DNA of 64,000 nt from Acetobacteraceae bacterium H6797 (GTDB lineage: Bacteria > Pseudomonadota > Alphaproteobacteria > Acetobacterales > Acetobacteraceae). A program made the position numbers and the translations under genes. The notes under the pieces are model-generated. The model was not told the origin of the DNA. It saw only the letters and a program-made list of their open reading frames with translations, and searched no databases. The stretch is from positions 434,001-498,000 of the forward strand of contig JADFCQ010000002.1 in the NCBI GenBank assembly GCA_015223225.1, given 5' to 3'. Positions 1-26,359 of the stretch are shown here, one piece after another. Numbering within the stretch: the first letter of the stretch is position 1; each line of letters begins with the position of its first letter.

Positions 1-208
1 TCTTGGCCTTGGCGATGGCCGTCTTGAAACGGTCGATGGCGAGCTTGTTGGCGCCCTCTTTCGCCTCCGCCGCCATGCCCTTCTCTTCCGCGCCATCGGC
101 TTTGGCGCGGCGGAAAGCGGCAAGGGCGTCGGTATAGTTGCCGGTCGACGTGGTCGCGGTATTGGAAATACCGAAGATCGTCGTCAGGCCGGCATAGATA
201 TTCGTCAT
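1..208 (-). CDS. Unrecognised protein of flagellin locus, N-terminal 69 residues (partial)
   Basis: The reading frame opens with ATG and leaves the window at its left edge, so only about 69 residues are visible. They begin MTNIYAGLTTIFGI and continue with a Ser/Thr-rich stretch, then an Ala/Lys-rich, probably helical segment. Its ATG overlaps the flaF stop as ATGA, so it is co-transcribed and probably translationally coupled to flaF, flbT and perhaps flagellin. I do not recognise the family. By context it is a flagellar accessory or structural protein (a DUF1217-type protein is one guess), but nothing visible proves it. Confidence 0.6.
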   Translation of the reverse strand, partial: MTNIYAGLTTIFGISNTATTSTGNYTDALAAFRRAKADGAEEKGMAAEAKEGANKLAIDRFKTAIAKAK

Positions 209-546
209 CGACGGCTGCTGAGGCCTATGGCGAGCATGTCGTTGATGTCGATGAGGAAATCGAGATCCGGCTGCGGCTCGTTCAACTCGCGCAGCACCGC
301 ATGGCTGACCGAGGCGATCTGCGCCCGCAGGTCCACCGGCAAAGCATTGGTCGGGTCCTGGACGACACCGCCGACGGCGAGCCAGAGCCGGCGATTATCG
401 GCCAGCGCGCGGGCACGGCGCGGCCCGTCATCGTCACGGGAGAGGCGCAGCGCGCCGGAGACGCGGCGGAAGACGTCGGCTTCCTGCAGGCGCGGGTCCA
501 GCCCGGCGCGGGAGGCGCCATAGGCGCGGGCGGCATTGGAGATCAT
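205..546 (-). CDS. flaF: Flagellar biosynthesis regulator FlaF
   Basis: A 113-residue protein starting MISNAARAYG, with the N-terminal 'AARAYG' and the 'NRRLWLAV' core typical of FlaF, a small helical protein largely confined to alphaproteobacteria. FlaF acts with FlbT in post-transcriptional control of flagellin synthesis and secretion; in Caulobacter it is needed for flagellin production. Length matches the family (about 110-120). It overlaps flbT upstream and the partial gene downstream by four bases each (ATGA), so three genes are translationally coupled. No catalytic motif is expected. The identification rests on family likeness plus the adjacent flbT and flagellin. Confidence 0.9.
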   Translation of the reverse strand: MISNAARAYGASRAGLDPRLQEADVFRRVSGALRLSRDDDGPRRARALADNRRLWLAVGGVVQDPTNALPVDLRAQIASVSHAVLRELNEPQPDLDFLIDINDMLAIGLSSRR

Positions 547-986
547 GCGTCATGCTCCTCGGCCACGGCGTTCATCCCCGGCTGATGGAAGGGCGGCAAG
601 CCCAGCACCGCCTCCTCATGCCGCATCACGCGCCGCGCGAGGCGCAGGGCCTGGTAGCAGTCATCGGCCTCCGCCGCCGCGAGCGCCCGATCGAGCAATT
701 CGCGCACGAGGCCCGAGGTGGTGGCCGCCTGGAATTCGCTGATGAGATCGCGCGCGAGATGAAGCCCTGCCTCGCGCTCGTGCTCATCGCCGATATAGGC
801 GGTCTGCAGCGCGAAATACACGCGCCGCGCAGGGGTGCTCGCAGCTTCCGGCGACATGATCTGCTTGCCGAAAAGAAAGCGGGCACGGGCAGTGAGCTCG
901 ATCCGCGCGCGATTGCGAAAGCGGATTGGCGCACCGTTGACGACCATGAGATCGCCTTGCCGTAGTTCAAGGACCAGTGTCGACAT
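543..986 (-). CDS. flbT: Flagellin synthesis repressor FlbT
   Basis: A 147-residue protein beginning MSTLVLELRQGDLMVVNGAP; the early 'L.L..GE/D.. .NGA' pattern, the 'F.FGK.IM.P..A.TPARR.YFALQ.AYIG' core and the length fit FlbT. FlbT is an alphaproteobacterial RNA-binding regulator that destabilises or blocks flagellin mRNA until the hook-basal body is complete; in Caulobacter it acts on the fljK 5' leader. It lies 60 bases downstream of the flagellin gene on the same strand and overlaps flaF by ATGA. A possible target hairpin lies in the flagellin leader (1904-1919). Confidence 0.93.
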   Translation of the reverse strand: MSTLVLELRQGDLMVVNGAPIRFRNRARIELTARARFLFGKQIMSPEAASTPARRVYFALQTAYIGDEHEREAGLHLARDLISEFQAATTSGLVRELLDRALAAAEADDCYQALRLARRVMRHEEAVLGLPPFHQPGMNAVAEEHDA

Positions 987-1046
987 TCGTCTAGCCTTCT
1001 TGGCACGCGAAGGAAGGGCGACCCGGCGCCGCCCTCCCCGTCGCGA

Positions 1047-1880
1047 TCAACGGAACAGGCTCAACAGGGTCTGCGGTGCCTGGTTGGCGATGCTGAGTGC
1101 CTGGGTGCCGAGCTGCTGCTGAATCTGCAGTGACTGCAGCTTGGCGGATTCCTTGGCGAGATCTGCATCGACCAGCGCACCGAGGCCCGAATTGAGGCTG
1201 TCGATTTTCTCGTTATTGTAGCTGATCTGCTTATCGAGATAGTTGCTGTCGGAACCGAAGGTATTCAGCGCGTCGCTGATGCTGTTCATGATGGTGTCGA
1301 AGTCACCGCCATCGGCCAGAGCGGCCTGCGCCGTCGCGGCATCCGTGGGCGCCGCGGCAACCACCAGGTCCGTCGCACCATCGACGGCCGTCAGCGTATA
1401 GGTCGTGCCGGCTTCGTTGCGGGTCGTGGAGATGTCGCCACCCCCCGCCGCCGTGTCCGTGCTGAGCAGCGAACGGCCGTTATAGGTGGAGTCGGTAATA
1501 TAGTTCTCCACCTGCGTGCGCATCGCGGTGTACTGCGCCTCATATTGCGCGCGCTGATCGGCATTGATGGTGTCATCGGCGAGCTTCACCAGTACACCCT
1601 TGATATCGGACATCGCCGTGCTGACCTTGTTCAGCGCGGAGAGCGTCGTATCCAGAATGCCCTTGGTGCCGCCGATCTGCTCGTTCGCGGACTGCAGACC
1701 CGCGACATCGGCGCGCACGGACTGGGCCACGGCGAAAGCCGCACCGTCATCCTTCGCATCCGCCACGCGCTGACCGGTGGAGATGCGCTTCTGCGTCGCC
1801 GTCAGAGCGTCGTTGGTGCGATTGAGCGACTGAAGAGCCACCATCGCGCCGTTGTTGGTATTGACGGAGTTCAGGGCCAT
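1047..1880 (-). CDS. Flagellin
   Basis: A 277-residue flagellin. The N-terminus (MALNSVNTNNGAMVALQSLN) and the C-terminus (LSIANQAPQTLLSLFR) are the conserved D0/D1 coiled-coil halves that polymerise the filament; the short Ala/Thr/Asp-rich middle (about residues 140-190) is a reduced surface domain, as in other small alphaproteobacterial flagellins. The ATG at 1880 was chosen because conserved flagellins start at this Met; an in-frame extension to 1955 adds basic, unrelated residues. An AAAGGGG ribosome site lies about 9 bases upstream. flbT and flaF follow on the same strand. It would be exported by the flagellar type III apparatus. Confidence 0.95.
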   Translation of the reverse strand: MALNSVNTNNGAMVALQSLNRTNDALTATQKRISTGQRVADAKDDGAAFAVAQSVRADVAGLQSANEQIGGTKGILDTTLSALNKVSTAMSDIKGVLVKLADDTINADQRAQYEAQYTAMRTQVENYITDSTYNGRSLLSTDTAAGGGDISTTRNEAGTTYTLTAVDGATDLVVAAAPTDAATAQAALADGGDFDTIMNSISDALNTFGSDSNYLDKQISYNNEKIDSLNSGLGALVDADLAKESAKLQSLQIQQQLGTQALSIANQAPQTLLSLFR

Positions 1881-1903
1881 AGGACCTGCCCCTTTCGATT
1901 TTC

Positions 1904-1919
1904 GGGCCCTTTGGGGCCC
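1904..1919 (-). promoter_or_regulatory. Hairpin in flagellin 5' leader
   Basis: GGGCCC is repeated in inverted orientation with a four-base loop, 24-39 bases upstream of the flagellin ATG and therefore inside the probable mRNA leader. FlbT in Caulobacter acts through the flagellin 5' untranslated region, and flbT is the next gene here, so this is a candidate target. The stem is short (6 bp, all G-C). No convincing sigma-28 or sigma-54 promoter could be placed upstream. Confidence 0.35.
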
Positions 1920-2025
1920 AGTTGCGCTCCGCATCTTGCGGTGTGTCGCAACCATCGCAGGGTAGTTATTGCCGATCGGTTAACGCGGACTGCTTATTTT
2001 CGAGTCATTGCAGCAGCGTCGCGCA

Positions 2026-3525
2026 TCAGCCCTTGATGCGCGCCACCGTGGCCGTAGTGGAATTGCCAGGGAGTAGTTCGGCGAGCTTTACCTGCCCGCC
2101 CCATTCCTGCACCAGATCGCCGCCCACCACCTGATCGACGCGATAATCGGCGCCTTTCACCAGTACATCCGGCTTCACGAGCTTGATCAGTTCGATGGGC
2201 GTGTCTTCGTCGAAGATACTGACCAGATCCACGGCCCCCAGCGAGGCCAACACGGCCGCGCGGGCCGCCTCGCTTTGGATCGGCCGCGCCGGGCCCTTGA
2301 GCCGCTTCACGCTGGCATCGGAATTCAGCCCCACCACCAGCCTGTCGCACCAGGAGCGCGATTGCTCGATCAGATGGACATGGCCGGGATGCAGCAGGTC
2401 GAAACACCCATTGGTGAAGCCCACGCGCCAGCCGCGCCGGCGCCAGCGCTCCACCTGCTCGACCACGGCCGAGCGGGACATGACCTTGCGCAGCGTGCCA
2501 CGCTCGGGAGTCAGCGCCTCGAGGATATCGCCATCGCGCGCGACGGCCGTGCCCACCTTGCCGACGACGATTCCCGCCGCGACATTGGCGAGCCGCGCAC
2601 CCGTCAGCAGCGACTGGCCCGAGGCCAGCGCGGCCGCGACCACGGCGACCACCGTGTCGCCGGCACCCGAGACGTCGAAGACCTCCGGCGCCTGGGCCGG
2701 CAGGTGATGCACCGAATCGGCGGTGAAGAGGCTCATGCCATCCTCGCTCCGCGTCACCAGCACCGCGCCGAAGCTGAAGCGCTGGCGCAGCGCCTGGGCG
2801 GCGACGGTGATCTCCTCCTCCGTCCCGATCGGCAGGCCGGTGGCCTCCTGCAATTCGCGGCGGTTCGGCGTGACGAGATCGGCACCGGTATAGGGCGCGT
2901 AATCCCGCCCCTTGGGGTCCACAATGACCTTGCGGCCGGCGGACTGGGCGGCAGCGATGAGGCGCGGCGTCACCTCGGGCGAGAGCACGCCCTTATGATA
3001 ATCGGAGAGCACCATCACTGCGGTCGCGGCGACGGCATCGCTCGCGATCTTCACCATGCGGTCGGCCAGGCGCGGATGGATGGGGCGCGCGATCTCGTTA
3101 TCGGCGCGCAGCATCTGTTGGCCGCTGGCAATGAAGCGCGTCTTGGTCGTGGTCGCCCGCCCGCCCTGCACGAGCAGCCAGGGCTCGACATTGGGCTGGC
3201 CGCCCACGAGTCCAGTCAGGTCGGCACCGGATTGGTCGTCACCCACCACGGAGATGAAGGCGACGGCCGCCCCAAGCGCGGTGAGGTTGCGCACGACATT
3301 GCCGGCACCGCCGGGCATCGCCACCTCACGCTCGACCGTGAGCACGGGCACGGGCGCCTCGGGGCTGATCCGGCCGACGCTGCCATAGACGTAGCGGTCA
3401 AGCATCGCGTCGCCGACCACCAGGACGGAGGCGCGCTTGAGCTGCCGCGTGGCGTCGGCGAGATCGGTTTCGGACATGTCGAGAGCCGGGCGGTTGTCAC
3501 CGCCCGCCGAGGCGGGGCCTTCCAT
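2026..3525 (-). CDS. hldE: Bifunctional heptose 7-phosphate kinase / heptose 1-phosphate adenylyltransferase
   Basis: A 499-codon frame with two domains. Residues about 30-335 form a ribokinase-type kinase (GGAGN near 72, DVSGAGDT near 285) that makes D-glycero-beta-D-manno-heptose 1,7-bisphosphate. Residues about 360-499 form a nucleotidyltransferase (FTNGCFDLLHPGH, with the HxGH signature) that makes ADP-heptose for the LPS inner core. Length fits HldE/RfaE (about 475-495). The start is uncertain: a second Met (MSETDL, at 3477) gives 483 residues, nearer the family norm, and neither start has a strong ribosome site. The gene lies downstream of the metallophosphatase on the same strand. The phosphatase GmhB and isomerase GmhA of this pathway are not in the window. 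Confidence 0.95.
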   Translation of the reverse strand: MEGPASAGGDNRPALDMSETDLADATRQLKRASVLVVGDAMLDRYVYGSVGRISPEAPVPVLTVEREVAMPGGAGNVVRNLTALGAAVAFISVVGDDQSGADLTGLVGGQPNVEPWLLVQGGRATTTKTRFIASGQQMLRADNEIARPIHPRLADRMVKIASDAVAATAVMVLSDYHKGVLSPEVTPRLIAAAQSAGRKVIVDPKGRDYAPYTGADLVTPNRRELQEATGLPIGTEEEITVAAQALRQRFSFGAVLVTRSEDGMSLFTADSVHHLPAQAPEVFDVSGAGDTVVAVVAAALASGQSLLTGARLANVAAGIVVGKVGTAVARDGDILEALTPERGTLRKVMSRSAVVEQVERWRRRGWRVGFTNGCFDLLHPGHVHLIEQSRSWCDRLVVGLNSDASVKRLKGPARPIQSEAARAAVLASLGAVDLVSIFDEDTPIELIKLVKPDVLVKGADYRVDQVVGGDLVQEWGGQVKLAELLPGNSTTATVARIKG

Positions 3526-3585: not shown

Positions 3586-4317
3586 CTAGCCGGGCCCGCC
3601 GACGGATAAAAGGCGGTAGCATCCGCCCTCCAGGACGAGGCAGGTCAGGCTGCCGCCATAGACGGCGCCGGTATCGATCCCTATCCGGTGGCGCAGGATT
3701 TCCGGCCTGAGCGCGGGCGTATGGCCATGGACCACCACCAGGGGCAGCGCCTCCGGCCGGGCGGACAGGAAGGGCTGGCGAATCCAGAGCATGTCCTGCT
3801 CGGTCTGGGCCGCGAGCGGCAGGCCGGGGCGAAGGCCGGCATGGACGAAGGCATAGCCCCCGGCCGACCAGATCAGCGGCCTTTCGGCAAGAAAGCGGCG
3901 ATGCGGCTCGGGAATCCGCCCCCAACTGCCGCGATCGCGCGCGGAGGCGCCATAGGAGCGGAGTGTCTCATTCCCGCCATTGGCGAGCCAGGCGCGCACG
4001 GCGGCGTCGCTGGCGCCTGGCGCGAGGGCGTCGCGCATCATGGCGTCGTGATTGCCGAGCAGGCTCACGCATTCCATGCCCGCCACCGGGGACGGGCCAA
4101 GCAGGCGCGCGATGACGGCCGCGCTATCCGGCCCACGATCCACGTAATCGCCCAGATGCAGCAGGACCATGCGGGTAGCGGGCCGTGCCGCCGCATCCTG
4201 CGCGATCAGGCGATGAAGCGCGAAAAGCAGGCCTGAGCAGCCATGCACGTCGCCGATCGCATAGACACGGAGGCCCTCTGGCAGTAGCGCGGGCGCGATT
4301 GACGAATTGTTAGTCAT
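3586..4317 (-). CDS. Calcineurin-like metallophosphoesterase (serine/threonine phosphatase type)
   Basis: A 243-residue protein with the full metallophosphoesterase signature in order: GDVHG (about residue 22), GDYVDRGPDS (about 56), GNHDAM (about 88), VHAG (about 176) and VHGHTP (about 209). These residues bind two metals in PPP-type phosphatases such as bacterial PrpA and diadenosine tetraphosphatase ApaH. The GDxVDRGP form matches the protein-phosphatase/ApaH subgroup, but the substrate (phosphoprotein, dinucleoside polyphosphate or other) cannot be told from sequence. No signal peptide, so cytoplasmic. It lies 60 bases upstream of hldE on the same strand and diverges from the EAL-like genes. 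Confidence 0.85.
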   Translation of the reverse strand: MTNNSSIAPALLPEGLRVYAIGDVHGCSGLLFALHRLIAQDAAARPATRMVLLHLGDYVDRGPDSAAVIARLLGPSPVAGMECVSLLGNHDAMMRDALAPGASDAAVRAWLANGGNETLRSYGASARDRGSWGRIPEPHRRFLAERPLIWSAGGYAFVHAGLRPGLPLAAQTEQDMLWIRQPFLSARPEALPLVVVHGHTPALRPEILRHRIGIDTGAVYGGSLTCLVLEGGCYRLLSVGGPG

Positions 4318-4394
4318 TCGTCTGCCAGCATAGCGCCCTGAAGGCGGAGCGCCACGCTACCGCCGTCGATTTCGGCAACCTTAGCTCAGGCGTG

Positions 4395-5675
4395 ATGGCC
4401 TGGGCGCTCTTGGCGGTGCTCCCGATGGCGGTGATCGAGAACCTGTCCGGGCTATTCCCCCCCGCGCAACGCGCCGGGCGGGAGGCGGTGTCCAGGCCGC
4501 CGGGGCCCGTGATGACGGCGACGCTCGCGGCCCTGCGCCATACGGCGGAGGGCGCTGCGCTGCTGCTGCGGCCCGGACCGGCGCCGGATGGGCAGCGGCT
4601 GCGCCTCGCCAAGGCCCTGCTGCGGGACGCGATCGCGCGCGGCGGCACACTGCTAGAGGCCGATCGCGGGGAAATGCTGCTGCTTTCGGCCGATGCCAAG
4701 GGGCTGGCCGGGCTGCGGCCCGTGCTGGCGCGCCTCTTCGGCGACGAGCCGGACAGCCTGCATCTCTGGAGCCTGCCCCATGACGCGCCGGATCTGCTGG
4801 ACTGGTCGGAGAAGGCGAGCCCCGCCGGCCGTGCCTCCTCGGCCGAGTTGGTGGACCCGCGCAAGGTCGAGGCGCGCCTGACCGTGACGCCGCTCGAGGA
4901 ATTGCTGCGGCGGGAGACGCTGTTGCGGCCCGATACCGTCCTGCGCCCGGCGGGGCTGCGGCTGCGGCTCGATACGGCCGCCATCGAGCGGATGGCGGGG
5001 GGCGATCCGGATCTCGCGGCGCATTGCCAGGAAGTCCTGGCGCGGCGCTGTCTGGCGGGCATGGCGAGCGCCGCTCGGATGCGGCAATGGCTCGGCGGCG
5101 CCGGGCGGCCGCCTCTGCTGGTGGATCTGCCGGCCGATGCCTTTCTCGACGCCCCGGACCAGGGTGGCCAGGAAGCGTCCCCACCTGTCGCATCGGACTT
5201 CCCGCCCGTCATCGCGGTGCTGCCTGTGTCGACGGTCGCCGATGAGGCGGGCTTCCGCCGCATCGCGCAGGCGCTGCGCCGGCGGGGCTGGGGCATCGCC
5301 CTGTCCGGCATCGCGGCCAAGCTGCTGCCGGGCATCCGCGCCGAAAGGCTCGCGGCGGATATGCTGGTGCTCGACTGGTCGCCAAGCCTCCTGCGCATGG
5401 AGGAGCAGCTGCGCGCGGCCCTGCCCGGCCGCATCCTGCTCGATGGCTGCGACGAACCGCAGGCGATCGGCTTCGCCGCCCGGCTGGGCATGGCGCGGAT
5501 CAGTGGGCCCCTGCCGGAGCGGCTCGGCGCCTCCGCCCGCATGGCCCGTTGCGCGCATCAGGCCCGCTGCGGCATGGCGGCCTGCATGGCCCGCGCCGGT
5601 GCGACCGATGCGCGCGGCCGCGAGGGCTGCGCCTCACCCGAATTGCTGGCCGCCTCGCTGGATCTCCCCGCATGA
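4395..5675 (+). CDS. Degenerate EAL-like protein A with cysteine-rich C-terminus
   Basis: A 426-residue protein of no named family that I recognise. The last third resembles the second half of an EAL domain: 'ALRRRGWGIALSGI', 'ADMLVLDWS', then 'CDEPQAIGFAARLGMARISG', matching in order the EAL segments 'GxxxALDDFG', 'DxIKLD' and 'VExxxQxxxLxxLGCxxxQG'. The EAL triplet and its metal ligands are not apparent, so phosphodiesterase activity is unlikely. The tail carries four Cys (CAHQARC, then AAC and EGC), a possible metal site. It overlaps its paralogue by ATGA. A later Met at 4512 is possible, but third-position GC is coding-like from 4395. Probably a c-di-GMP sensor or scaffold, by inference. 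Confidence 0.6.
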   Translation: MAWALLAVLPMAVIENLSGLFPPAQRAGREAVSRPPGPVMTATLAALRHTAEGAALLLRPGPAPDGQRLRLAKALLRDAIARGGTLLEADRGEMLLLSADAKGLAGLRPVLARLFGDEPDSLHLWSLPHDAPDLLDWSEKASPAGRASSAELVDPRKVEARLTVTPLEELLRRETLLRPDTVLRPAGLRLRLDTAAIERMAGGDPDLAAHCQEVLARRCLAGMASAARMRQWLGGAGRPPLLVDLPADAFLDAPDQGGQEASPPVASDFPPVIAVLPVSTVADEAGFRRIAQALRRRGWGIALSGIAAKLLPGIRAERLAADMLVLDWSPSLLRMEEQLRAALPGRILLDGCDEPQAIGFAARLGMARISGPLPERLGASARMARCAHQARCGMAACMARAGATDARGREGCASPELLAASLDLPA

Positions 5676-6817
5676 GCCTCGCCCTTTCCCCTCCCCCGAT
5701 CATCGCGCCGCTCGGCGGTGCCGCCGAGCTTGCGAGCCTGGTGCGGGAGGCCCTTTCGGCCGGTGCCTCGCGCACGGTGCTCTGGCTCCACCTCTCCCGC
5801 CTGCCCGCCCGGCTGCGCAAGCCGCATCACCGCCGGCTGCTCGATGCCGCCCTTGCGCCCCTCGGGCAGGAGGCGCGGCTGAGGCGCTTCGATCTGCCCA
5901 ATGGCGATGTCGCGGCCATCGCCGTGCCGCCCGCCCGGCCGCTGGAAAGCCTGCGGGCCTCGCTGGCGACGCTCTTCGACGAGGAGGACATGGGCTATCT
6001 CCTCTCCAGCCTCTCGCTCCCCATGGAGGCGGCGGCCGTCATGGCCTCGCTGGAGGAGGCGATGGGCTTCGGCGCCGTGACGGTGGCCGCGAGCCAGGCC
6101 GCGGCACCGCTTTCGGCCGATGATCTCGCCGGGCTGGAACGCACGCTTTCGACGGCCGATCTCACCTCCTTCCTACGGCGCCAGGATATCTGCCGGGTGC
6201 CGGCCGAGGGTGGTGTCGCCGAATTCTGGTCGGCCGATCTGCGCCTGCCGCTGGACGAACTCACCGAGACCCTGGCCCCCGGCCGGGAATTGCGCAGCCA
6301 GCCCGCCCTGCGCCGCCGCCTCCGTCGCCGGCTGGATGAAAGGCTGCTCGTGGATATGGCGCGGCCGGACAATGCCCAGCGGGTCGAGGCGCGGAGCCTG
6401 TCGCTCAGCCTGCACAGCCTCGTCTCGCCCATTTTTCTCCGGCTCGATGCCGCGCTGCCGGCGGCCGCCCGGCGCGAGATGCTCGTTTTCGTCGAGACGG
6501 CGGATATCCTGGCCCACCCTTCCACCATGGAGGCGGCGGGGCAGTTCCTGGCCACCCGGGGCTACCGTCTGGGGCTCGATATCCAGGGCCCGGCCATGTT
6601 CGACCTGCTTTCGCCGGAGGGGCTGGGCGCCTCGGCCATCAGGTTCCCTTGCGCCATCGCCCGGCAGTTGAGCGGCGAACAGTTGCGGGACCTCGCCTCG
6701 CGGCTCGATCTGATCCTGACCGGCGCGGACAAGACGACCGATATCGCCTGGGGCTGGCAGCAGGGCCTGTCGATCTTCCAGGGCCGGGCGGTGGAGCGGC
6801 GCGGCCGGCGGGGCTGA
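5672..6817 (+). CDS. Degenerate EAL-like protein B, paralogue of A
   Basis: A 381-residue protein with ATG overlapping the stop of the preceding gene. The layout repeats that of its neighbour: an N-terminal alpha/beta segment ('RRLLDAALAPLG..', 'RFDLPNGDVAAIAV', 'LESLRASLATLF'), a variable middle, then an EAL-like end: 'REMLVFVETADIL', 'GYRLGLDIQG', 'ASAIRF', 'DLILTGADKTTDIAWGWQQGLSIFQG'. The final 'GLSIFQG' corresponds to the 'GxxxxQG' that closes EAL domains. Catalytic acidic residues are not evident. Unlike A, it has no cysteine cluster. The pair looks like an old tandem duplication, perhaps forming a heterodimer. Function is unknown. Confidence 0.6.
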   Translation: MSLALSPPPIIAPLGGAAELASLVREALSAGASRTVLWLHLSRLPARLRKPHHRRLLDAALAPLGQEARLRRFDLPNGDVAAIAVPPARPLESLRASLATLFDEEDMGYLLSSLSLPMEAAAVMASLEEAMGFGAVTVAASQAAAPLSADDLAGLERTLSTADLTSFLRRQDICRVPAEGGVAEFWSADLRLPLDELTETLAPGRELRSQPALRRRLRRRLDERLLVDMARPDNAQRVEARSLSLSLHSLVSPIFLRLDAALPAAARREMLVFVETADILAHPSTMEAAGQFLATRGYRLGLDIQGPAMFDLLSPEGLGASAIRFPCAIARQLSGEQLRDLASRLDLILTGADKTTDIAWGWQQGLSIFQGRAVERRGRRG

Positions 6818-6884: not shown

Positions 6885-7643
6885 ATGCAACATCGCTACG
6901 CCATCCGAGTCGAAGGGCTGACCAAGCGCTACGGCTCCAACACGGCCGTCGATCATCTGGATTTCGCGGTCCCGAAGGGCGAAACCTGGGCCCTGTTGGG
7001 CGGCAATGGCGCCGGCAAGACCACCACCATCGGCATGCTGCTCGGTATCCTGAAGCCGAGCGCCGGGCGCATCTCGGTGCTGGGCCATGACATGGCGACC
7101 GACCGTTTCGCCGCCCTGGCGCGAATGAATTTCTCATCCCCCTATGTCGCCCTGCCCCATCGGCTGACGGTGCGTGAAAACCTGCGCGTCTATGCCCATC
7201 TCTACGACGTGCGCCGCGCCGAGGCGCGGATCGACACGCTGCTGGAGGCCTTGCAGCTGCAGGAAATCGAACATCGCCCCGCAGGCCAGCTTTCGGCCGG
7301 GCAGAAAACGCGCGTGGCGCTGGCCAAGGCGCTGATCAACGAGCCAGACCTGCTGCTGCTCGACGAGCCCACCGCGAGCCTCGACCCCGATACAGGCGAC
7401 TGGGTGCGCGGCTGGCTCGAGCGTTATCGCGCGGAAAGCGGCTGCTCCATCCTGCTCGCCAGCCACAACATGGCCGAGGTGGAGCGGCTCTGCGGCCAGG
7501 TGCTGATGCTCAAGCGCGGCCGTCTGGTCGATCGCGGCAGCCCGGAAGAGCTCCGCGCGCGCTACGGGCATGACGATCTGGAACAGGTCTTCCTCGATAT
7601 CGCGCGCGACCGCAAACCCCTCGCCTTGGAGGCCCCGGCATGA
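6885..7643 (+). CDS. ABC-2 type exporter, ATP-binding subunit
   Basis: A 252-residue ATPase with Walker A (GGNGAGKTT, near residue 40), a signature close to LSAGQKTR, and Walker B (LLLLDEPTASLD), followed by the H-loop 'ASHNMAE'. The sequence type (NodI/DrrA/CcmA-like, single-domain, with an ABC-2 permease next) indicates an exporter of a lipid, polysaccharide or hydrophobic compound; the cargo is not predictable. The start at MQHRYAIRVEGL places 'VEGLTKRYG' at the normal position; the longer frame from 6831 adds unrelated residues. It ends overlapping the permease start, so the two are coupled. It follows the EAL-like pair by 67 bases on the same strand. Confidence 0.92.
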   Translation: MQHRYAIRVEGLTKRYGSNTAVDHLDFAVPKGETWALLGGNGAGKTTTIGMLLGILKPSAGRISVLGHDMATDRFAALARMNFSSPYVALPHRLTVRENLRVYAHLYDVRRAEARIDTLLEALQLQEIEHRPAGQLSAGQKTRVALAKALINEPDLLLLDEPTASLDPDTGDWVRGWLERYRAESGCSILLASHNMAEVERLCGQVLMLKRGRLVDRGSPEELRARYGHDDLEQVFLDIARDRKPLALEAPA

Positions 7644-8446
7644 TGCTGCGCGCTTCCTGCCGCCGCGTCTGGGGCCTGATCTACCGCCATCTCGCGCTCT
7701 ACCGCCGCTCCTGGCCGCGCGTGGTCGAGCTGATGTACTGGCCCGTGCTGCAGATGGTGGTCTGGGGCTTCATCACCGCTTATCTGGCCGGGGTGCAGCA
7801 GAACCTCGCGAGCTACGCCGCCGGCGCCCTGCTGGGCGGCGTGCTGCTCTGGGAGGTGGCGCTGAGGAGCCAGATGGGCTTCGCGCTCTCCTTCCTGGAG
7901 GAGATATGGTCGCGCAACCTGGGCCATATCTTCGTCAGCCCCTTGCGGCCTGGCGAGCTGGTCGCGGCGCTGATCGGCATGAGCGCGCTCAGGATGTTCA
8001 CGGGCGTGCTCCCGGCCATCGCGCTGGCCTGGCTGCTCTATGGCTTCGGGCTGTTCGAGATGGGGCCCATCGTGGTGCTCTTCTTCGCGGCGCTGATGAT
8101 GATGGGCTGGGCCGTGGCGCTGGGCGTCACCTCGCTCATCCTGCGCTACGGTCAGGGGGCGGAGGCCATGGCTTGGAGCGTGCTTTTCGGCCTGACGCCC
8201 TTCTGCGCGGTTTTCTACCCCGTCTCGATCCTGCCCGATGCCATGCAGATCATCGCCTATGCCCTCCCCGCCTCGCATGTCTTCGAGGGCATGCGCCAGG
8301 CCATGGCGGGCGGCGGTATCGCCTGGGAACATCTGCTGGGCGCCTTCGTGCTCGACGGGATGTGGCTAGTGATCATGGGCTGGCTCTTCTTCCAGCAACT
8401 CGACAAGGCGCGCGAAACCGGCGCCCTGCTGTCGATGGGGGAGTAG
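7640..8446 (+). CDS. ABC-2 type exporter, permease subunit
   Basis: A 268-residue integral membrane protein with about six hydrophobic segments (first near residues 35-55, 'VLQMVVWGFITAYLAG'; others near 58-75, 110-135, 140-165, 175-200 and 235-255), the pattern of ABC-2 permeases (NodJ/DrrB type). It starts at ATG overlapping the ATPase stop. The conserved ABC-2 motif region ('PLRPGELVAALIG') is present. With the preceding ATPase it forms a complete half-transporter pair. The substrate is unknown. The frame ends inside a longer open frame on the same strand that carries the next gene; the two are separate genes, not a fusion. Confidence 0.9.
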   Translation: MMLRASCRRVWGLIYRHLALYRRSWPRVVELMYWPVLQMVVWGFITAYLAGVQQNLASYAAGALLGGVLLWEVALRSQMGFALSFLEEIWSRNLGHIFVSPLRPGELVAALIGMSALRMFTGVLPAIALAWLLYGFGLFEMGPIVVLFFAALMMMGWAVALGVTSLILRYGQGAEAMAWSVLFGLTPFCAVFYPVSILPDAMQIIAYALPASHVFEGMRQAMAGGGIAWEHLLGAFVLDGMWLVIMGWLFFQQLDKARETGALLSMGE

Positions 8447-10657: not shown

Positions 10658-14007
<3,350 letters not shown>

Positions 14008-14012
<5 letters not shown>

Positions 14013-24970: not shown

Positions 24971-26359
24971 ATGAAAGGCGCCGAACCCCCTCCCGCCTCC
25001 GTCCTGCCCCCGCCGAGCGCCGATGGCGCGCTTCGGGCGGCGCTGCTCGAATCCCGCCAGCGCTGGCGGGATGCGCTGTTGATGGCGGTCGACTTCGTCT
25101 TCGAGACGGATATCCAGGGCCGGTTCACCTTCATCGCGCCCGATCCGGCACTAGGCCATACCGGCTGCTCCCTGCTGGGCCAGCCGGCCTCCTCGCTGCT
25201 GCTCGACCCGGCGCTGGACCCTTTCCAGCTTTTCCAGCCGCTGCGGGACCGCCGGGTCTGGCTGCGCCGGGGCGGCGGCGGTTCGTGCTGCGTGGCGCTC
25301 TGCCTCGCGCCCCTGCATGACGAGAGCGGCCGGCCCATCGGCCTGCGGGGCACGGCGCGGGACATCACCTCGGAGGAGCAGGCCTCGCTCGACGCCGCCG
25401 CCTCCCTCCGCCGCACCGCCATGCTCGACCAGGTGATGCAGACGGCGCGGCAGGAGAAGCTCATCGACCTGCGCATGCGCCGGGTCATGGAGGGTTTCTG
25501 CGATGGCGTGGGCTGCATGGGCCTTGCGCTGCTCGAGCGCAAGGCCGGCCAGCCGCTGCTGATCGTCGGCGAGGCGCCGGAGGGTTTCGACCCGGCCAAG
25601 GCCCTGGCGAGCGCGGCGGTGAACCGCTTCGCGCATCATCTCTTCCCCGGCCCGCATGGCGAGCCATTGATCTTCTTCGGCCTCGCCCAGGGGCAAGGGC
25701 AGCCCGCGGGCCTGCTCGGATGGCGCGCCGCCGGGGCTCGCGATTTCGATGGGGAGGAGAGCGACCTGCTCCGCCGCGCGGCCGAGATCCTGGGCGGCAT
25801 GCGGCATCAGGCGCTGGAACGCGAAGCGCTTGAACGCGAGGCGGGGACGGACCCGCTGACGGGCCTGCTCAACCGCCGCGCCTTCGTCGCCGAGTTGGAA
25901 AGGCGCCTCGCCCGCGTCGCCATGATGCGCGGCTCGGGCGCCGGCGGCTCGCTGATCTATGTGGACCTCGACAATTTCAAACCCCTGAACGACCAGTTCG
26001 GCCATGCGGCCGGAGATGCGGCGCTTAAGCGCATCGCGGTCCTGCTGCGGGATGGCGTGCGGCCGTCGGATCTCGTCGGGCGGCTCGGCGGGGATGAATT
26101 CGCCGCCTGGCTGGACGGGGCGGAGGAGGATGTGGCGGCCGCGCGGGCCGAGGCGCTCCATCGCATCGGGCAGCGCTATATCGAGGGCATCGGAGCGGAT
26201 GGCAGGCCGCTTTCCATGTCCATCGGCATCGCCGCCGCGCGGCCCGGCATCGCGGAAAGCACCGCGAGCCTCCTCGCCCGGGCCGATGCGGCCATGTATG
26301 CCGCGAAACGCCTGGGGCGCGGGCGCTGGAGCGTCGCACCGCCGATGGAGGCGCCGTAA
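24971..26359 (+). CDS. Diguanylate cyclase with N-terminal PAS-like sensor
   Basis: A 462-residue protein. Residues about 25-135 look like a PAS domain ('RWRDALLMAVDFVFETDIQGRF', ending 'RGTARDITSEEQ'), 145-285 an uncharacterised or GAF-like linker, and 290-455 a GGDEF domain starting 'DPLTGLLNRRAF'. The catalytic GGDEF is intact ('RLGGDEFAAW', about residue 373), and RPSD five residues before it is the product-inhibition I-site. It should make c-di-GMP from two GTP and be feedback regulated. No membrane segments, so cytoplasmic. It abuts the DUF2336 gene with no gap. Confidence 0.92.
   Translation: MKGAEPPPASVLPPPSADGALRAALLESRQRWRDALLMAVDFVFETDIQGRFTFIAPDPALGHTGCSLLGQPASSLLLDPALDPFQLFQPLRDRRVWLRRGGGGSCCVALCLAPLHDESGRPIGLRGTARDITSEEQASLDAAASLRRTAMLDQVMQTARQEKLIDLRMRRVMEGFCDGVGCMGLALLERKAGQPLLIVGEAPEGFDPAKALASAAVNRFAHHLFPGPHGEPLIFFGLAQGQGQPAGLLGWRAAGARDFDGEESDLLRRAAEILGGMRHQALEREALEREAGTDPLTGLLNRRAFVAELERRLARVAMMRGSGAGGSLIYVDLDNFKPLNDQFGHAAGDAALKRIAVLLRDGVRPSDLVGRLGGDEFAAWLDGAEEDVAAARAEALHRIGQRYIEGIGADGRPLSMSIGIAAARPGIAESTASLLARADAAMYAAKRLGRGRWSVAPPMEAP

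Follow-up and report, generated by a model that had tools for sequence, protein, structure and literature searches.

What could a bacterium do with two adjacent proteins that resemble EAL-type c-di-GMP enzymes but are deprived of the residues on which such enzymes depend? This question is raised by a gene pair of Acetobacteraceae bacterium H6797, referred to here as A and B, lying near the start of a 64,000-nucleotide stretch of contig JADFCQ010000002.1 (hereafter the window, whose own coordinates are used below unless another locus is named). The host genome (9 contigs, 4.84 Mb in total) encodes 7 EAL and 15 GGDEF domains above the Pfam cut-offs; a canonical GGDEF domain lies in the window itself, at about 25844-26323 (+). 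An initial annotation, made from the letters of the window, regarded A and B as two coupled, degenerate EAL-like proteins that form a heteromeric c-di-GMP sensor, with A perhaps sensitive to redox or metal and a possible link to the ABC exporter encoded downstream.

Two coupled genes of an unnamed family

A and B are real, homologous and translationally coupled genes. According to the ORF calls, the predicted gene A (4512..5675, +) codes for a putative degenerate GGDEF-EAL protein with a four-cysteine tail, and the predicted gene B (5672..6817, +) for a putative degenerate GGDEF-EAL protein devoid of this tail. In the ORF list of the window both lie on the + strand and share an ATGA at 5672-5675, so that the coupling noticed in the initial annotation holds. 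The long open reading frame of A spans 4392-5675. Since residues 1-36 of this long frame are disordered in the AlphaFold model (pLDDT <50) and a methionine is present at 4512, an ATG start at 4512 is likelier than one at about 4395. No transmembrane-like stretch was detected in A or B (best 19-residue hydropathy of 1.74 and 1.29), and the best reading of the two sequences is that of a cytosolic pair.

When the A and B of the window are compared by themselves, their likeness is invisible (BLASTP E 0.52). At the profile level, the resemblance that had been proposed between them is clear: a profile of A-type copies aligns with a profile of the remaining copies over 381 columns with an E-value of 6.3e-75. 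The family to which they belong has no naming Pfam or NCBIfam model. Neither A nor B of the window matched any Pfam family at E<=1, the EAL model PF00563 included, their NCBIfam search returned a single chance-level match, and a phmmer search with B found no match in PDB. Among the 37 relatives of the first alignment, 20 match PF00563 (best 1.3e-10), and six of 37 family members weakly match the NCBIfam CsrD model (best E 2.1e-4).

A first scan of genome contigs with B alone as the query returned no relative, and no family relative was found in the viral contigs scanned. In a search of 100 genomes with B alone, the host genome counted in, relatives were detected in 40. With a profile of 77 members, 385 alphaproteobacterial genomes were sampled and the family was recorded in 119 of them at E<=1e-5 and, by a strict count, in 112 (~29%) at E<=1e-20; the latter is the safe figure, because the canonical EAL proteins of the host genome themselves reach 1.8e-5 at best with the same profile. 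The loci are partly redundant, since L055, L078 and L079 on the one hand and L056 and L144 on the other come from the same or nearly the same genomes. Our literature search found no paper on this family, for which other names may exist. A survey of the GGDEF, EAL and HD-GYP genes of alphaproteobacteria rests on Pfam matches, and the word 'degenerate' does not occur in the available parts of its text (PMC9756655); the accessible text of a survey of Azospirillum describes further hybrid proteins whose GGDEF domain is highly degenerate (PMC5845226).

Predicted fold

The AlphaFold (AF2) models have a mean pLDDT of 87.1 for B and 76.8 for A, and the top Foldseek matches of both are two-domain GGDEF-EAL structures (5m3c with E 5.7e-11 for B, 5xge with E 8.3e-9 for A). 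With a structural aligner, B was superposed on the EAL domain of LapD (Z 16.8, rmsd 3.1, 208 residues) and A on that of FimX (4fok; Z 15.9, rmsd 4.7, 232 residues), which indicates that both models contain an EAL-type TIM barrel. Two loci with split frames, L091 and L110, were left out of the structure alignments. Besides, a 37-member profile finds EAL structures in PDB (best E 1.6e-5), and the C-terminal half of the family, in a profile built from relatives outside the window's taxonomic family, matches the seven EAL domains of the host genome with E 1.6e-11, compared to 0.022 for the best of 50 column shuffles. The EAL likeness put forward in the initial annotation is thereby corroborated, but not its extent: the C-terminal third that had been proposed becomes, in B, about 60% of the protein (model residues ~143-376 of 381, at 6098..6799, +), while the degenerate EAL-like part of A covers model residues ~150-372 (4839..5507, +).

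The N-terminal part, on which the initial annotation had been silent, looks like a degenerate GGDEF domain, at 4500..4817 (+) in A (model residues ~37-142, delimited from secondary structure, Foldseek and the N-half profile) and at 5714..6061 (+) in B (model residues ~15-130). The N-half profile, built from the same outside relatives, matches the host GGDEF domains with E 1.5e-4 and prob 52 (best of 50 shuffles, 0.046). This GGDEF half is a weaker claim than the EAL half, because the BLUF-EAL protein BlrP1 likewise aligns over it and because it was modelled within the whole protein only. On the basis of the models and profiles, A and B are each read as a whole protein made of a degenerate GGDEF part followed by a degenerate EAL part.

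Catalytic and ligand residues

Eight EAL positions were scored, among which E188, E272 and Q379 were placed from the motifs of the domain, and it is around E188 that the alignment is least secure. The numbering is that of BlrP1, as used in the accessible text of PMC3989770 and PMC12072042. As a control, the canonical ENEDDKEQ was recovered, 8/8, in all seven EAL domains of the host genome. At the same positions, A of the window reads RDASGVDS and B reads DSFDIRTQ, which means that none of the eight ligands is kept in A and two are kept in B; the lack of the EAL triplet and of evident metal ligands pointed out in the initial annotation is thus borne out. A c-di-GMP sensor is therefore unlikely in the host genome.

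The picture is different outside the window's taxonomic family, where 79 single-copy relatives were scored. E188, N239, E272, D302 and Q379 are each kept in 78 of them and K323 in 79, whereas D303 and E359 are lost in all 79. Furthermore, Arg192, which belongs to the EALLR motif of BlrP1 and holds a phosphate of c-di-GMP (PMC3989770, in the parts available), is replaced by Ser in 76 of the 79; the same clamp arginine is R450 in LapD, according to the available sections of PMC3032553. The GGDEF motif is absent as well, its position reading N-x-D-[LI] in the relatives (N in 59/79, D in 75/79). Within the window's taxonomic family, the first genes (n=21) keep E188 in 12, N239 in 10, E272 in 11, D302 in 10, D303 in 1, K323 in 12, E359 in 2 and Q379 in 12, a tally in which one fragment, L069, is counted as a first gene although the tree places it as a B copy. 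The second genes (n=25) keep E188 in 10, N239 in 4, E272 in 3, D302 in 7, D303 in 5, K323 in 2, E359 in 2 and Q379 in 12. The simplest story told by these sequences would be that the whole family is catalytically dead, and that a partial site, kept in most lineages, was lost in the window's branch, in B first and then in A. Since the EAL pocket of the relatives keeps a six-residue partial metal/nucleotide site, the ancestor was probably a nucleotide receptor, and the single-copy relatives may still bind a nucleotide.

The cysteine tail of A

The four cysteines of A, residues 387, 393, 398 and 413, form a C387-x5-C393-x4-C398-x14-C413 tail at 5550..5630 (+). Among the first genes of tandem pairs, this tail takes the form C-x5-C-x4-C-x11-R-x2-C. 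An alignment of 13 tails, including one truncated before the first cysteine, shows no variation in the last three cysteines or in the arginine. Counted with a loose pattern over ORFs of which some are fragments, the tail was found in 19/26 first genes of the window's taxonomic family and in 6/15 first genes elsewhere (two of these 15 being split single genes), in 1/3 single genes of the window's taxonomic family, in 0/79 single genes outside it and in 0/41 second genes. The cysteines singled out in the initial annotation are thus conserved. A profile of the tail has no credible match in PDB (7 weak matches, best E 0.17). The four conserved cysteines, together with the lack of a transmembrane-like stretch, suggest a Zn site, an Fe-S cluster or a redox switch, and one of these is probably what the tail of A provides. 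On the other hand, some A copies whose pockets have decayed (L032, L033 and L039) have lost the tail, which is therefore not indispensable.

Duplication history

A tree was built from 88 copies, with L061, L065, L091, L110 and L151 excluded. Within the window's taxonomic family, it separates the A copies from the B copies, the one exception being L069, a fragment taken as A by gene order which groups with B. A quick free tree places all the copies of this taxonomic family together and joins A with B, but constraining the A copies of all taxonomic families to one clade gives a likelihood better by 37.85 lnL units, with an AU p-value of 0.867. This better constrained tree and the common cysteine tail favour a single old tandem duplication; as the terminal branches are long (1.39 changes per column for A and 0.89 for B), this favoured history, drawn from the sequences, has to be taken with caution.

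Genomic neighbourhood

Divergently upstream of A lie the genes for a calcineurin-like phosphoesterase (Metallophos; 3586..4317, -) and for HldE, an enzyme of ADP-heptose synthesis (2026..3474, -), and downstream of B come those for an ABC ATPase of the DrrA/NodI type (6885..7643, +) and for an ABC-2 type permease (7640..8446, +), all four being identified by Pfam/NCBIfam and by synteny as conserved neighbours. In wide loci of the window's taxonomic family, a homologue of HldE or of the phosphoesterase is found divergently upstream in 22 of 23, and the ABC ATPase is found downstream on the same strand in 16 of 23 (one of them at 4.4 kb), the exporter being missing beside B in the other 7. The link to the exporter suggested in the initial annotation is thus backed by a conserved position, although adjacency is no proof of function. 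Further along the window, at 11856-14012 (+), lies a gene for a long protein of RTX-like GGxGxD repeats.

In a wider set of 79 named loci, many of which are short, the genes near the family gene include those for HldE (20 loci), the phosphoesterase (15), the permease (21), a BBP2_2 beta-barrel (10), a Wzz-like protein (10; a reading of the sequence rather than a Pfam assignment), a LapG-type protease of the Peptidase_C93 family (9) and an HD-GYP-like protein (13); L079, a near copy of L078, was left out of the neighbour counts. One locus outside this set, L059, adds one LapG-type protease and one HD-GYP-like gene. HldE, the phosphoesterase, the HD-GYP-like gene, the LapG-type gene and the family gene occur together in L106, L107, L110 and L120. 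In L107, the LapG-type protease (L107:7127-7810, +; Pfam E 8.8e-18) lies directly upstream of the family gene and divergently from the gene of the HD-GYP-like protein (L107:4887-7016, -), which has homologues in L101, L106, L110, L120, L140, L059, L150 and L153. In seven of the nine genomes with a LapG-type protease, this protease is encoded a single time. The LapG-type model PF06035 has no match in the host genome and in five others of its taxonomic family, the Caulobacter control being positive, and the LapD_MoxY_N model has none in 14 genomes, a result that does not establish absence since its control was silent too.

The HD-GYP-like neighbour is itself degenerate, with [ML]NLGK in place of HDxGK and no HHE motif in 9 of 14 homologues, so that this neighbourhood joins two dead types of c-di-GMP protein. 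On plasmid AZO_p3 of Azospirillum lipoferum 4B, a family member annotated as hypothetical (L159:6719-7951) is followed by MotA/TolQ/ExbB and OmpA-family genes and by an F0F1 ATP synthase cluster.

Co-occurrence with GGDEF and flagellar genes

GGDEF domains are present in all 112 clear carriers of the family, compared to 164 of the 273 other genomes; two genomes with weak family matches (G090 and G191) have none. However, the tie is nearly as tight for the flagellar protein FlbT, 130 of the 135 FlbT genomes having GGDEF domains, which makes the association of carriers with GGDEF unspecific and weak as evidence. Since the genomes are related, Fisher tests on such counts are not independent evidence. 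FlbT itself occurs in 78/112 carriers and 57/273 non-carriers, and flaF, flbT and a flagellin gene adjoin HldE at 205-1955 (-) of the window. Among the wide loci of the window's taxonomic family, flagellar genes are near the pair in the window only. The FlbT excess and the MotA/TolQ/ExbB and OmpA-family genes beside the Azospirillum lipoferum relative are suggestive, but a link to flagella was not adopted.

Comparison with known systems

Degenerate GGDEF-EAL proteins are already known as effectors. FimX is cytosolic, as A and B are predicted to be, but is encoded by one gene and, unlike A, is not known to have a cysteine tail. It is a degenerate GGDEF-EAL protein of pilus assembly whose EAL domain is the best match of A, and it differs from the pair in binding c-di-GMP, as stated in PDB titles. 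In LapD of Pseudomonas, both the GGDEF and the EAL domains are degenerate, as they look to be in A and B, and its EAL domain is the best structural match of B; in the accessible parts of PMC3032553, LapD stands as the model of a dead GGDEF-EAL unit working by conformational contact, whose EAL part has a gene of its own in V. cholerae El Tor. The likeness extends to the neighbourhood, as relatives of A and B directly adjoin a LapG-type protease gene in 10 loci. Nevertheless, A and B have no Pfam-recognised periplasmic (LapD_MoxY_N) or HAMP part and no transmembrane-like stretch, their host genome has no LapG-type protease match, and LapD keeps the c-di-GMP arginine (PMC3032553, in the parts available) which is missing in their family. 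Finally, CsrD of E. coli, a regulator of RNA decay, shares the degenerate GGDEF-EAL arrangement, and its NCBIfam model is the one weakly matched by the six family members mentioned above; unlike the pair, it is a membrane HAMP-GGDEF-EAL protein, according to the same accessible text (PMC3032553).

Possible functions of the pair

In the light of these data, the proposal of the initial annotation can be given its most explicit form as a heteromeric receptor of the LapD or FimX type, whose EAL pocket would bind c-di-GMP without hydrolysing it and signal through the GGDEF cap or the partner. The nearest folds do belong to the EAL domains of two c-di-GMP receptors, six of the eight pocket residues are kept in 78-79 of the 79 single-copy relatives, in LapD too the motif is without its initial E (KVL; PMC3032553, in the parts available), and the GGDEF enzymes of all 112 carriers (against 164/273 non-carriers) would fit a c-di-GMP role. 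Yet the 0/8 and 2/8 pocket residues of A and B, the clamp arginine turned into Ser in 76/79 relatives and the FlbT tie of 130/135 make this receptor unlikely, and for the host genome the sensor claim is unsupported. A receptor whose ligand is not c-di-GMP but another molecule, bound at a one-metal site made of E188, N239, E272, D302, K323 and Q379, would account for the fixed ENEDGK-x-Q signature, for the loss of D303 and E359 in 79/79 and for the near-invariant Ser in place of Arg192, the window pair then being a decayed branch; as the residue roles are taken from BlrP1 (PMC3989770, in its accessible text) and partly from what is generally known of EAL domains, and as the E188 column is the least certain of the alignment, this is considered rather improbable. 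Little credence is likewise given to a longer scenario, in which the EAL barrel of a widespread alphaproteobacterial family would have become such a one-metal receptor, a subset would have been duplicated with A gaining a metal/redox four-cysteine tail, and the window lineage would have lost the nucleotide input to end as a metal/redox-controlled envelope regulator. That the pair is simply decaying and functionless in the host lineage is very unlikely: the lost pocket residues, the long end branches (A 1.39, B 0.89) and the loss of the tail in three close relatives could be so understood, but the two reading frames are unbroken, in the window as in most relatives, the tandem arrangement, the coupling and the neighbours persist at ~40% identity, and the four cysteines are retained in A of the window. 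As to an active c-di-GMP phosphodiesterase or cyclase, the EAL and GGDEF-EAL folds speak for it, and the missing EAL catalytic residues together with the GGDEF motif missing in the family leave it scarcely credible.

The explanation that we prefer, with about an even chance of being right, is that A and B are old tandem paralogous pseudo-enzymes of the cytosol, likely forming a hetero-oligomer, that serve as a contact regulator or scaffold of the envelope functions encoded alongside. Such a contact regulator would pair A with B through their EAL barrels and act by protein contact on adjacent envelope functions, namely heptose/LPS synthesis and the ABC-2 exporter. With nothing of the pocket left in A of the host genome and hardly anything in B, c-di-GMP would no longer be read through the usual pocket, and the cysteine tail of A, with its presumed cofactor, would be the remaining candidate input. 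The GGDEF enzymes of all clear carriers, the dispensable tail, the joining of A with B in the quick free tree and the limits of adjacency as proof, with the exporter missing beside B in 7 of the 23 wide loci, weigh against this explanation.

The pair thus stands for a branch of degenerate GGDEF-EAL proteins that lacks a naming Pfam or NCBIfam model, yet occurs in ~29% of the sampled alphaproteobacterial genomes. The catalytic residues that this branch keeps and those that it has lost form a fixed pattern, which predicts a testable change or loss of ligand. Besides, its neighbours, among which HldE, the exporter, the LapG-type protease, the degenerate HD-GYP protein and exopolysaccharide-type genes, point to the control of the envelope or of adhesion, and these conserved neighbourhoods supply concrete targets.
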